A stretch of DNA of 62,077 bases from an uncultured Halieaceae bacterium (lineage in GTDB: Bacteria; Pseudomonadota; Gammaproteobacteria; Pseudomonadales; Halieaceae), in NCBI GenBank assembly GCA_913057135.1, contig CAJXNM010000015.1, positions 1 through 62,077 on the forward strand, in the 5' to 3' direction. The translations under genes and the position numbers were made by a program. This document shows positions 6,290 to 57,476 of this stretch, piece after piece (positions within the stretch are counted from its first letter, which is position 1; each line of letters starts with the position of its first letter). The notes under the pieces were generated by a model. It ran no database searches. It was not told where the DNA came from and saw only the letters and a program-made list of their open reading frames with translations.

Positions 6290-6404
6290 TGTCTAAGGTA
6301 ACCGTTTAATACAGTCGAGCAAAACTACTTGATCTCAGATCAACACAATGCTGCGCGCGGCCATTTATGCTTTCAACCTAAACAGACCATTGATAACCCC
6401 CAAA

Positions 6405-6433
6405 AAAGGACCTAAAGTACCCGAAAAGGGTCC
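6405..6433 (+). promoter_or_regulatory. Phased repeats upstream of the MNT/HEPN pair, likely autoregulatory operator
   Basis: Three related units follow each other at about 9-10 bp steps: AAAGGACC (6405-6412), AAAGTACC (6414-6421) and AAAAGGGTCC (6424-6433). The first and third also form an inverted GGACC/GGTCC pair. They lie immediately upstream of the preferred start of the HTH-containing nucleotidyltransferase (6450), where an autorepressor operator would be expected. If translation instead begins at 6348 this stretch would be coding, and it would give a basic low-complexity leader. Confidence 0.45.
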
Positions 6434-6449
6434 TTCTTTGGCGTATCTA

Positions 6450-7076
6450 ATGAACAACTATCCGTCTGCCATAGGTGATGTGCTATTCACTAAAACTCAA
6501 CAGCGCGTATTGGCACTTTTGTATTCAAGACCAGAGCGCAGTTTCTATCTTAATGAGATAGTTCGCCTAGCAGATATGGGTAAGGGCACCATTGGGCGGG
6601 AACTACAGAAGCTTGCTTCCGTGGATTTGATCACCGTCAACAAGCAAGGTAATCAGACTCACTATCAAGCCAATTCGAACAACCCCGTTTTCAATGAACT
6701 GAAAGGGCTCGTCGACAAAACTTTTGGTGTTGTAGGGGTGCTTACCACTGCTATAGAACCACTGTTACCTGATATCGAATTCGCCTTTGTGTACGGTTCA
6801 ATAGCTCAAGGAACAGAGAACGCGGAAAGCGATATTGACCTGATGATGGTCGCAGATCGCATGAGCTACAGCGATTTAATGAGCCGGCTTTTGGAAGCTG
6901 AACAGAGGTTAAACCGAAAAATAAATCCAACGATTTACTCGACAAAGGAATTTAACGACAGAATCGTCAATCAGCAGAGTTTCGTAGCCAGGGTTCTGGA
7001 GAAAAACATTCTGTGGCTGCATGGTAAGTCAAGCTTTGAACTTAAGCGCTACAACGGTCACGCAGAAGCGAGCTAA
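6450..7076 (+). CDS. MNT-type nucleotidyltransferase with N-terminal winged HTH (antitoxin of a HEPN/MNT module)
   Basis: The protein combines an N-terminal ArsR-like winged-helix domain (TKTQQRVLALLYSRPERSFYLNEI) with a minimal nucleotidyltransferase domain. The catalytic signature is FAFVYGSIAQGTENAESDIDLMMV, i.e. G-S-x(n)-D-x-D. In HEPN/MNT modules the nucleotidyltransferase neutralises the HEPN RNase by AMPylation or complex formation, and the HTH would give autoregulation. I prefer ATG 6450 (208 residues) over the longer frame from 6348, because the extra 34 residues are translated from repeats that look like an operator. The HEPN gene follows 2 bp downstream. Base composition is visibly more AT-rich than the flanking bch/crt genes, consistent with an acquired module. 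Confidence 0.75.
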   Translation: MNNYPSAIGDVLFTKTQQRVLALLYSRPERSFYLNEIVRLADMGKGTIGRELQKLASVDLITVNKQGNQTHYQANSNNPVFNELKGLVDKTFGVVGVLTTAIEPLLPDIEFAFVYGSIAQGTENAESDIDLMMVADRMSYSDLMSRLLEAEQRLNRKINPTIYSTKEFNDRIVNQQSFVARVLEKNILWLHGKSSFELKRYNGHAEAS

Positions 7077-7078
7077 CC

Positions 7079-7489
7079 ATGGACGCCTTGGACAACCTAG
7101 TAAGAATCAACCAATTGAAAGCGGAGCCACCAGATCCAGCAGAATTTCAGGGAATGTTAAGAGCGGCCTCATTGAAATTGCAGGATGCGCAACTAAGCGG
7201 CCTCTCGAAAGATAGCCAGTTCACCCTGGCCTACGGCGCTGCTCATGCGTTAGCTTTAGCAGCTCTACGTTGGCACGGTTATCGCTCAGATAAACGCTAC
7301 ATTGTGTTCCAGTGCCTACAGCACACCCTAAATTTACCTGCAGAGGAGTGGCGTGTATTCGATTTGTGCCACAACCGCAGAAACTTGGCAGAATACGAAG
7401 GGCATCTTGAAATCGAAGACAGCCTGTTAAAAGATTTACTGCGGTTGACCAATAAGCTAGTTGAAAAAGTTAATTCATTGAACAAATAA
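7079..7489 (+). CDS. HEPN-domain protein, putative RNase toxin partner of the MNT protein
   Basis: The 136-residue protein is alpha-helical throughout, with a central segment AYGAAHALALAALRWHGYRS and a later CHNRRNLAEYEG. This resembles the HEPN/nucleotidyltransferase-substrate-binding family, in which a helix-borne R-x(4-6)-H motif forms an RNase centre. The canonical His is not evident here: the R-N stretch is followed by Y-E-G. Its RNase activity is therefore uncertain and it may be of the R-x4-Y variant class. It starts 2 bp after the MNT stop, as expected for a co-translated pair. Assignment to HEPN rests on motif shape and on the partner gene. Confidence 0.65.
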   Translation: MDALDNLVRINQLKAEPPDPAEFQGMLRAASLKLQDAQLSGLSKDSQFTLAYGAAHALALAALRWHGYRSDKRYIVFQCLQHTLNLPAEEWRVFDLCHNRRNLAEYEGHLEIEDSLLKDLLRLTNKLVEKVNSLNK

Positions 7490-54546: not shown

Positions 54547-54667
54547 TGATTTTTAGGATCAAGAGGTTCGGAATAAACAAACATCGAAGCAGACCGCTGG
54601 GGGCGGGGTGTGCTGCGGTTGCCATAACGGCATAGCCATTCAAGAGAGCCACTCAAAGGAGCTCAGC

Positions 54668-55150
54668 GTGACCAATACACAAGCACCCGCCACTGATATT
54701 ACCGACGACAGGCCCGCCAATACCCCAGAGGCGCTTTTGCATTTGGCCTATGTCAGCACCCAAACTCGACTGATGAGCGGTGCAGACCTGCTAGCGCTGT
54801 TAGATGAAGCCCGCAACAATAACGGGCAGCGGGGCGTCACGGGCCTGCTACTGCACAAGGAGGATGCTTTCTTCCAAGTGCTCGAAGGCCCCGAGACGGC
54901 GGTGCGCGGCACGTTCCAAAGCATCCTGGCAGACGAGCGCCACAAGAATATCGAGGTGCTGTTAGAAGAGCCTTTGGACACTCGACAGTTCCCCGATTGG
55001 CAGATGGGCTTTTCCGACTTGGACAACATCGATCCGTCGCTGATCCCCGGCTATAGCCACTTTATGAGCGAAGAGCGTTGCCCTCGGCGCTTTTTAGAGG
55101 AACTCAGTGCCAGCAAACGGCTCGCCGTCATGTTCCGCGACCTTCAGTAA
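54668..55150 (+). CDS. BLUF-domain blue-light photoreceptor
   Basis: A 160-residue protein with one BLUF domain (about residues 20-115) and a short C-terminal helix. Flavin-site residues expected in the family are visible: Tyr in LLHLAYVST, Asn in DEARNNNGQRGVTGLLL, Gln in FFQVLEG and Trp/Met in DWQMGF. BLUF proteins sense blue light through FAD; in Rhodobacter sphaeroides AppA, a BLUF protein antagonises PpsR. A regulatory link to PpsR here is an inference from the PGC location and the PpsR-like sites upstream. GTG 54668 is chosen because AAGGAG precedes it by 6 bp; the frame opens earlier at 54608. Confidence 0.9.
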   Translation: MTNTQAPATDITDDRPANTPEALLHLAYVSTQTRLMSGADLLALLDEARNNNGQRGVTGLLLHKEDAFFQVLEGPETAVRGTFQSILADERHKNIEVLLEEPLDTRQFPDWQMGFSDLDNIDPSLIPGYSHFMSEERCPRRFLEELSASKRLAVMFRDLQ

Positions 55151-55199
55151 ACGATAACAACAGAGTAAGCTGGGGCCTCCTTGATTCGAGGCACCCGCC

Positions 55200-57476
55200 A
55201 TGATTGAGCGTCGTTTTGTGCTAAAAGCCTCCGCCGTCGGAACAGCCATGATGGCGACGGGCGCTGCTAGAGCCTGGACCGGTACGACCGAACCACCGAC
55301 CGCGCAACAGGGGGAGTCACTACTTGACTACCTGCAGCGCACAGGCGACGGCACCGACCAAGCCACCTATGCGCGGTGGCTTGGGGCGGCCAATGCCTTC
55401 AAAGAAGGGGATGACATCATTGGTGTTGCAGCCCCCAATGACACCGTGCGCCTACTGGCACGCACGCTCCTAAGTAATACCAGCCTCCGAGAAATCGATG
55501 ATATGGCAGGCCATCGTGATCACGTCTGGCGGTTCGCCAACGAGGCACGGGATCCCACCTTAGCCACTGAATTGGCAGACACAACCCTTGGGGCGCTCAA
55601 AAGCCAGTTGCTGGGTTCACCGGGGGCGCAGTGCGCCACACTGGGCACAGGTCTATCAAGCGATGCCATTGCCGCAGTGGTACGACTGATGAGCAACGAC
55701 GAGCTCGTGGCCGTGGCCGCCAAAGTCTTCAATCCACTGCCCGGCAGCAACATTGGCGCCAAAGGCTATATGGGGGCGCGGGTGCAGCCCAACTCCCCCA
55801 CCGACAACCCCGACGACATTCGCTGGCAGGTATTTGATGCCTTCGCCTACGGTGTGGGCGATGTGGTGCTGGGTACCAACCCGGTCTCGAGCGAGGTCGA
55901 ATCGGTAGCCGCCATCGAGGCAACCCTCGCGGATATCGCCACTACCTTCGGTGTACAGGAACATCTTCCCCACTGCGTGTTGGCCCATATCGATGTGCAA
56001 GCAGAAGCCGAGGCGCAAGCACCGAACACGACCGGCATTTGGTTTCAGAGCATCGCCGGCAATGATGAGGCCAACGCCACTTTTGATATCTCCGTGCAAT
56101 CCATGCGCGACCATGCCGCAAAGCGCAGCGGTCCATGGGGCCTCTATTTCGAGACGGGACAGGGCGCCGACTTCACCAACGGCCACGGCTACGGCGTCGA
56201 TATGGTGACCTGGGAAGCCCGCAAGTACGGGTTTGCCCGAGCCCTACAGCGGGATGTTGCCCAGGCAAAAGCCCAGACCGGTGATCCGCGGGAGCCCTGG
56301 GTACACCTGAATGATGTGGCAGGTTTCATTGGCCCAGAAGTCTTCAGAAGCAAAGAGCAGCTGGTGCGCTGCTGCTTGGAAGACATCGTCATGGGTAAAC
56401 TGCACGGTCTCTGTATCGGTCTCGATATCTGCGCCACGCTGCATATGAGCGTGTCACTGGATGATTTGGATTGGTGCATCGATCAGGTAATGCCCGCGAA
56501 TCCCGCCTATCTCATGGCCTTGCCCACAAAAATTGACCCCATGCTGGGTTATCTCACTACCGGCTATCAAGACCACGTACGCATACGCGAGCGCTTCGGC
56601 TACAGGGTGGAAGACCGAATGTGGCAGCTGTTCCAACGTCTTGAAGTCGTGAATGCCGATGGCAGCCCAGGCCCCAACTTTGGTGATCCCATTGCGGTAT
56701 ACATCGCCTACAGACGTGCTAAGGGCGACTTACGCAGCGCCGGGCAACTGCGGAACGAAGCTACCGAGCAGTTAGCGGGTGTTCGCGGCCGCGGTGTTTT
56801 CATTGCCGAGGGTTACGGGGCTGCACCTTCAGCGTTGGAGCCATCGCTGGCGGCACTGATCACCGGCATCACCGATGAGGCGCGCACCTGTATTTGGGAG
56901 CAATTCGACGATCGCTTTCTTAAGCAGTGGTCAACGGGGCTGCGTTTGACAACCCAATCAAAGGACCGGGAAGACTACATATTGCATCCAGACTCGGGGG
57001 AGCAACTCAGCACTGGGGCGCTGAAACGTCTGGGGCAGTGGCGGCAAACCGCAGCCGACTATAACGCCATCATTGTTATCTCAGACGGACTGAATGCGCG
57101 GGCGCTCAAACAGGGTGATCAGCTAGCGCGGCTCTATAGCAGCCTGCAGAAAGCGCTTACCGTGGATGGCTGGCGGGTGGCTGAGACGCCCCTCATCATT
57201 GAGTCTGGGCGGGTTCGGGCCGGTTATCAAACCGGCGAGCAGTTACTCAATCACCTAGCCGGCAACGGTTTGCTACTACACATTATCGGGGAACGGCCTG
57301 GCACAGGCCACAACACGCTATCGGTGTATATGACCCAAGCCAAAGGGGCGGTGTGGGCAAGCACTGGCACCGTCGATCATGACATCACTAAAGTGGTCTC
57401 GGGCATTGCCGACAGCGCCCTAAAACCCGAGCTGGCAGTGCAGCAGATTTCAAGGATCCTAGCCACGATTGCCTAG
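55200..57476 (+). CDS. eutBC: Fused ethanolamine ammonia-lyase (EutB-EutC) with Tat-like leader
   Basis: A 758-residue fusion. Residues about 35-480 match the large subunit EutB (GDDIIGVAAPNDTVRLLARTLLSNTSL, GTGLSSDAIAAVVRLMSNDELV, FNPLPGSNIGAKGYMGARVQPNSPTDNPDD, LHGLCIGLDICATLHMSVSLDDL). Residues about 520-755 match the small subunit EutC (IIVISDGLNARAL, ESGRVRAGYQTGEQLLNHL, GERPGTGHNTLSVYMTQ). The holoenzyme needs adenosylcobalamin and cleaves ethanolamine to acetaldehyde and ammonia. Oddly, the first 26 residues read MIERRFVLKASAVG...GAARA, a plausible twin-arginine signal with an A-R-A cleavage site. eutA, permease and aldehyde dehydrogenase genes are absent nearby. Confidence 0.88.
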   Translation: MIERRFVLKASAVGTAMMATGAARAWTGTTEPPTAQQGESLLDYLQRTGDGTDQATYARWLGAANAFKEGDDIIGVAAPNDTVRLLARTLLSNTSLREIDDMAGHRDHVWRFANEARDPTLATELADTTLGALKSQLLGSPGAQCATLGTGLSSDAIAAVVRLMSNDELVAVAAKVFNPLPGSNIGAKGYMGARVQPNSPTDNPDDIRWQVFDAFAYGVGDVVLGTNPVSSEVESVAAIEATLADIATTFGVQEHLPHCVLAHIDVQAEAEAQAPNTTGIWFQSIAGNDEANATFDISVQSMRDHAAKRSGPWGLYFETGQGADFTNGHGYGVDMVTWEARKYGFARALQRDVAQAKAQTGDPREPWVHLNDVAGFIGPEVFRSKEQLVRCCLEDIVMGKLHGLCIGLDICATLHMSVSLDDLDWCIDQVMPANPAYLMALPTKIDPMLGYLTTGYQDHVRIRERFGYRVEDRMWQLFQRLEVVNADGSPGPNFGDPIAVYIAYRRAKGDLRSAGQLRNEATEQLAGVRGRGVFIAEGYGAAPSALEPSLAALITGITDEARTCIWEQFDDRFLKQWSTGLRLTTQSKDREDYILHPDSGEQLSTGALKRLGQWRQTAADYNAIIVISDGLNARALKQGDQLARLYSSLQKALTVDGWRVAETPLIIESGRVRAGYQTGEQLLNHLAGNGLLLHIIGERPGTGHNTLSVYMTQAKGAVWASTGTVDHDITKVVSGIADSALKPELAVQQISRILATIA

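Follow-up and report, generated by a model that had tools for sequence, protein, structure and literature searches.

A fused EutB-EutC protein with a Tat-type leader belongs to a multiphylum clade of probable exported ethanolamine ammonia-lyases

Results

A fused EutB-EutC gene at the edge of a photosynthesis gene cluster

The window, that is, the whole stretch of 62,077 nucleotides analyzed here, comes from an uncultured Halieaceae bacterium (assembly GCA_913057135.1, contig CAJXNM010000015.1). On its forward strand, positions 55200 to 57476 (stop codon included) hold an open reading frame (ORF) of 758 amino acids. In this protein, a EutB domain placed by Pfam and by a residue map (residues 60 to 489, positions 55377 to 56666; E = 1.9e-127, 426 bits against a cutoff of 25) is joined to a EutC domain (residues 559 to 756, positions 56874 to 57467; E = 7.5e-31, 107.7 bits against a cutoff of 25.8) by a linker without a Pfam domain (residues 490 to 558, positions 56667 to 56873). 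An earlier note on this DNA had proposed that both subunits of ethanolamine ammonia-lyase are present in one chain, and the single frame with its two Pfam domains bears this out. Two separate subunits in an (alpha-beta)6 assembly are the usual, not the defining, trait of the enzyme; the window protein departs from this in being a single chain. The EutC motifs SDGL, GRV, and GERPG are retained, and the sequences of solved structures that match the protein are ethanolamine ammonia-lyase chains, both large (2qez and 3abo) and small (3any and others). The full-length NCBIfam models were missed, just barely for EutB (549 against 554) and by far for EutC (84 against 230). The host genome (2.86 Mb, 97.7% complete) contains a single EutB.

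The frame opens with an ATG at 55200, five in-frame codons after the preceding stop, and a putative Shine-Dalgarno sequence, GAGG, can be read 8 bases 5′ of it (positions 55188 to 55191, forward strand). A start codon downstream of the leader had been named in the earlier note as evidence against export; later starts are indeed present in frame (GTG at 55218, ATG at 55248 and 55251), yet it is the ATG at 55200 that aligns with the relatives.

The first 25 residues (MIERRFVLKASAVGTAMMATGAARA, positions 55200 to 55274, forward strand), followed by W, make up a Tat-type leader in which a twin arginine (encoded at 55209 to 55214) precedes a run of uncharged residues and an AxA-like end; the motif ERRFVLK..ARA agrees with the Tat criteria, and cleavage would occur after residue 25, at the AxA-type site. 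When residues 1 to 45 are searched alone, the Tat model TIGR01409 scores 20.8 bits against a cutoff of 16.7 (E = 3.4e-4); on the whole chain, the curated Tat models remain below their cutoffs (13 against 22.7 bits in Pfam, 10.9 against 16.7 in NCBIfam). The Tat-like character that had been noticed in the N terminus is thus upheld by the twin arginine, the hydrophobic stretch, the AxA-type site, and the TIGR01409 match. TatC is encoded in the host genome (G000:C43:18960-19589, E = 2.5e-72).

The rest of the window is, judging from its ORF list, presumably a photosynthesis gene cluster; Pfam confirms an acsF-like Rubrerythrin-domain protein and a BLUF protein. The BLUF blue-light sensor gene (positions 54608 to 55150, forward strand) lies at the edge of this cluster, on the same strand as the fused gene, which begins 49 bp downstream; cotranscription of the two is possible. 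Adenosylcobalamin (AdoCbl) is light sensitive; light-linked cotranscription was rejected as a general explanation because the closest relatives (L002 and L003) carry other genes at this place. Two adjacent ORFs within the cluster (positions 6348 to 7489) resemble, by sequence impression, an MNT nucleotidyltransferase and a HEPN-type partner.

A patchily distributed clade and two other groups of fused enzymes

A genome scan yielded 28 further loci beside the window, and whole-genome searches added more. These relatives, named here as in the titles of their genome records, form one clade that spans Gammaproteobacteria, Planctomycetota, Bacteroidota, and Bryobacterales-, delta-, and Rhizobiales-titled genomes. 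Matches at the level of the clade (47 to 59% identity to the window protein) were counted in samples that each include the bearer genome chosen as the center: 16 of 392 genomes in the phylum of a planctomycete (G152), 2 of 395 in the phylum of Echinicola, and 9 of 347, two of the nine being incomplete, in that of a Bryobacterales-titled metagenome-assembled genome (MAG). In the gammaproteobacterial sample, the window's own genome was the sole bearer (1/369, and 1/57 within its genus). Given this patchy distribution, the fused gene probably moves horizontally. Two genomes hold more than one frame: G160 encodes two paralogs of the clade (L016 and L027), one of them cut by a contig end, and G170 has two partial frames, the second of which was considered as another kind of EutB and rejected because its identity to the window protein, 56%, is at clade level.

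In a midpoint-rooted tree of the EutB part (124 sequences, after removal of 18 short fragments and of duplicate genes, with the fragment L160 also left out), the clade is recovered with SH support of 1.0, next to a sister group of fused enzymes (0.999). A second fused group forms a separate branch by the split enzymes. The same groups were obtained from 36 sequences with 1,000 ultrafast bootstraps, where support was 98 for the clade, 100 for the sister group, 100 for both together, 100 for the second fused group, 99 for the split enzymes, 100 for the pair L107 and L108, and 94 for the pair with Sec-type leaders described below. The sister group (L064, L155 to L159, and L161) comprises the nearest relatives, at 31 to 40% identity, and all of its members but L161 are fused in one frame; the frame of L161, at 518 aa, stops short of most of EutC. 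The second group (L059/L061, L077/L179, L109/L177, and L112/L178) shares the EutB-EutC fusion.

The leader is conserved within the clade

A single rule was applied to all groups: a leader was called where a start codon lies 25 to 100 residues before the EutB core and is followed by a basic pair and then by a stretch of 11 residues that lacks D, E, K, and R and has a mean hydropathy of 0.6 or more. It was called in 46 of the 52 clade members scored (the window protein included; L154, with a missing N terminus, excluded), in none of the sister group (0/7) or the second fused group (0/4), and in none of the 57 split EutB proteins that could be scored out of 64 (the anchor motif was not found in seven), for which the rule mostly scores sequence upstream of the usual start. 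The counts did not change at a hydropathy threshold of 0.9; at 1.2, 44 of the 52 clade members were called, the window protein and L002 dropping out. By eye, four of the six misses (L016, L027, L149, and L151) do contain RR, with a charged stretch behind it. Thus, to the question raised in the earlier note of whether the leader is conserved, the answer is in favor, with 46 of 52 members plus RR in four more against 0/11 other fused and 0/57 scored split proteins.

The remaining two misses, L107 and L108 (52 to 53% identical), are truly leaderless. They count against the proposal, but they are sisters nested within the leader-bearing clade, for which secondary loss is the simplest account; read from the tree, the leader was most simply gained once and lost once.

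Of the 50 members listed, 40 have RR at the position of the motif, whose consensus reads (R/N)RRx(F/L)(L/V)(K/Q). Two members have strongly hydrophobic leaders that we assign to the Sec type (L024, hydropathy 2.93; L153, 2.43), and in three others (L021 to L023), the leader ends in LLLxSC, a lipobox. Export itself seems to be under selection, since the leaders are mostly of the Tat type but Sec type in two members and lipobox bearing in three. Among 11 pairs of close relatives, some of which share a member and one of which shows no change, uncorrected counts over the leader codons alone gave a pS of 0.316, a pN of 0.112, and a pN/pS of 0.35. The curated Tat models detected few of these leaders: among 26 whole chains, Pfam and NCBIfam each matched 2, all weakly, with the window protein below both cutoffs, and of 10 leader pieces searched, 2 passed the cutoff. 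We would attribute these misses to short models failing on divergent leaders, rather than to a weak claim, and let the comparative evidence decide.

The gene stands alone in its bearer genomes

None of the genes that would mark a eut locus (EutA, permease, aldehyde dehydrogenase, or shell genes) was found alongside the fused gene. Searches of the window with tblastn returned no match to E. coli EutA, EutH, EutG, EutJ, EutE, EutD, EutT, EutQ, EutP, EutM, or EutS at an E value of 1e-5; at 1e-4, three permeases and two EutAs taken from leaderless relatives were likewise without a match. The reported absence of reactivase and transporter genes nearby is thereby confirmed. With the permease and EutA queries from leaderless relatives, neither gene was detected at 28 loci of the clade, although in 11 of these the flank on one side is shorter than 1 kb. 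By comparison, EutA and/or a permease is present in 5 of 10 neighborhoods of the two leaderless fused groups (L061, L172 to L179, and L182; L173 with less than 500 bases on one side): EutA adjoins L061, L177, and L179, amounting to three of four in the second fused group, and a permease adjoins L061, L172, and L174, the latter two representing an APC permease directly upstream in two of the six neighborhoods fetched for the sister group. The 12-kb regions around L107 and L108 contain neither EutA nor permease; the lack of these genes thus does not track the leader alone.

Accessory genes were counted in 28 bearer genomes, namely, G000 and the genomes of L002 to L026, L028, and L029 (L016 and L027 lie in the same one). 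Most of these are MAGs, and genes missing from them may simply fall in gaps. One of them, G152, also encodes a EutB that does not belong to the clade; none was found in the other 27. In G152, a leaderless 738-aa EutBC (L061, 465-5747) is followed by EutA and AA_permease_2 in one operon-like run; the same genome also holds a stand-alone EutBC of the leader-bearing clade, a natural pair of both versions. Full-length EutA occurs in 2 of the 28 genomes, in one of them beside the leaderless copy. A separate observation concerns G171, the home of L028, which encodes two full-length EutA homologs (L062 and L063) while its only detected EutB is the leader-bearing one on another contig; these EutAs may serve another B12 enzyme. 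An apparently wide occurrence of EutA (12/28 genomes with a match) was rejected: in ten genomes, only short stretches match, in frames of 412 to 451 aa that we take to be FtsA-like proteins, not reactivases. TatC was found in 26 of the 28 genomes, the host genome of the window included, one of the 26 being a fragment. Adenosyltransferases of the CobA type were matched in 7 genomes (one weakly) and those of the PduO type in 19; 24 of the 28, the host genome again among them, had one or more strong matches.

No shared partner emerged from the surroundings of the gene. When 270 predicted ORFs from the 28 loci and part of the window were clustered, no neighbor family was common to more than four loci, and Pfam annotation of 30 neighbors (25 from relatives, 5 from the window) returned nothing eut-like; alpha/beta hydrolase, SDR, GGDEF, and FtsX hits near some copies were set aside as lineage specific. 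Rfam gave no match, and hence no B12 riboswitch, in the window, in ten loci of the leader-bearing clade, or in eight further loci (five leaderless, three leader bearing).

Active-site positions are invariant and a clade-specific cysteine is present

Residues R194, Q196, N227, E318, F376, and D409 of the window protein correspond to R160, Q162, N193, E287, F329, and D362 of E. coli EutB, which we take to be its substrate contacts; a role of Arg160 is reportedly also named in the title of one paper. Together with S247, F258, V326, L402, and Y404, they make up the eleven E. coli positions checked, all presumed to contact substrate or B12. All eleven, first seen as identical in 29 of 29 members, are identical in 51 of 51 (L160 being left out here as well).

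Five changes at EutB positions that are conserved elsewhere, A175W, I192T, D197S, N367L, and L379C, are nearly constant in the clade and absent from the sister group; others are wholly or partly common to the two (A369M, 6/7 in the sister group; G345C, 6/7; Q405L, 4/7). A344C is found in 48 of 51 clade members, and clade and sister group have two constant EutC histidines (H694 and H727 of the window protein) at the positions of E. coli Leu224 and Ala254. The five clade-specific changes, with A369M and Q405L, would suit an exported AdoCbl-dependent ammonia-lyase for another amino alcohol, such as 2-amino-1-propanol or a modified ethanolamine; we consider this unlikely, as the six presumed substrate contacts named above are invariant in all 51 members.

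At E. coli position 379 (C426 of the window protein), all 51 clade members have Cys, whereas Leu is present in 7 of 7 sister group proteins and 61 of 62 split enzymes. This cysteine would be consistent with a periplasmic disulfide, in which C391/C392 may be its partners.

In the second fused group, the substrate-binding Asp362 is replaced by Ala in all four (L059, L077, L109, and L112), and EutA is located beside three of these; the substrate there is perhaps another one.

Discussion

The window protein is a EutB-EutC fusion with a conserved leader and intact active-site positions, and its gene stands alone, with no adjacent reactivase or permease. On balance, and with some reservation, we favor the interpretation that it is an exported, self-contained, AdoCbl-dependent lyase of ethanolamine, or of a similar amino alcohol, that would act on its own in the periplasm. 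Since the chain has an export tag and relatives from several phyla have one too, the reaction is probably extracytoplasmic.

With both subunits in one chain, they could be exported together, and a single leader would suffice. In this organism, Tat would deliver the protein to the periplasm in a folded and probably cofactor-loaded form; as Tat passes folded proteins, the cofactor could be loaded first. Sec-exported chains pass unfolded and would carry no bound cofactor, so that the Sec-type members would take up AdoCbl in the periplasm, after export. Once there, the enzyme would convert periplasmic ethanolamine, derived, for example, from phosphatidylethanolamine turnover, to ammonia and acetaldehyde by 5′-deoxyadenosyl radical chemistry. 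An inner membrane permease would be unnecessary for such a reaction, the toxic acetaldehyde would arise outside the cytoplasm, and the products could diffuse inward.

We give little credence to the idea, raised in the earlier note, that the leader is vestigial, or to mistranslation of the start, such that a cytoplasmic enzyme would be made from the ATG at 55248 or 55251. Those codons, the subthreshold Tat scores on the whole protein, and the leaderless L107 and L108 would be in keeping with it. However, the leader is retained across phyla with constrained codons (pN/pS of 0.35) and, in some lineages, is of the Sec or lipoprotein type instead of being lost; a plausible ribosome site precedes 55200; and no EutA or permease adjoins the gene, unlike in half of the ten leaderless fused neighborhoods. 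Finally, corrinoids arrive in the periplasm after outer membrane uptake, both B12-binding parts are retained, and full-length EutA is found in just 2 of the 28 bearer genomes, but loss of lyase function in favor of exported corrinoid binding or scavenging is hardly credible when the substrate-binding residues, unneeded for B12 binding, are as invariant as the rest, no B12 riboswitch was detected by Rfam in the window and 18 fetched loci, and no neighbor is common beyond a few loci.

A periplasmic ethanolamine lyase, the reading that we prefer, can be set beside several known systems. The E. coli and Salmonella EutB and EutC proteins (PDB 3abo and 2qez) resemble the window protein in both domains and in the eleven active-site and B12 positions; the E. 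coli enzyme is cytoplasmic, whereas the window protein is one chain with an export leader and no eut gene found nearby. Among cobamide enzymes, the dehalogenase PceA has a different fold and catalyzes reductive dehalogenation, not an AdoCbl radical lyase reaction; in Tat-exported cobamide dehalogenases, the cofactor is presumably loaded before export. PceA is nonetheless a precedent for a cobamide enzyme bearing a Tat signal, as this reductive dehalogenase is made with a Tat signal peptide, according to an excerpt of PMC5500849. Ethanolamine ammonia-lyase is described in an excerpt of PMC5821096 as producing acetaldehyde and ammonia by means of AdoCbl, with EutA removing the damaged cofactor, and microcompartments as holding acetaldehyde away from the cytoplasm; at neutral pH, ethanolamine can diffuse across the membrane. 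The short eut operon of P. aeruginosa is given there as aldehyde dehydrogenase, permease, EutB, and EutC (PMC5821096); with no EutA described for that operon in the excerpt, the absence of EutA is not special by itself. Titles and abstract openings in the open-license literature revealed no exported or fused ethanolamine ammonia-lyase, although one may be in print elsewhere.

We know of no AdoCbl radical enzyme that has been shown to work outside the cytoplasm. Somewhat more tentatively than for the window protein itself, the comparison of sequences suggests that a widespread clade may perform coenzyme B12 radical chemistry there, with periplasmic AdoCbl as a working pool and with the periplasm in the role that microcompartments play against acetaldehyde; we regard this as possible, if short of an even bet. 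If it is true, one question is by what route the periplasm obtains and replenishes a cofactor that is costly and sensitive to light, and another is whether export can replace microcompartments in dealing with acetaldehyde. These questions are made testable by the named strain Echinicola pacifica DSM 19836 (L017) and by the dual-version genome G152.
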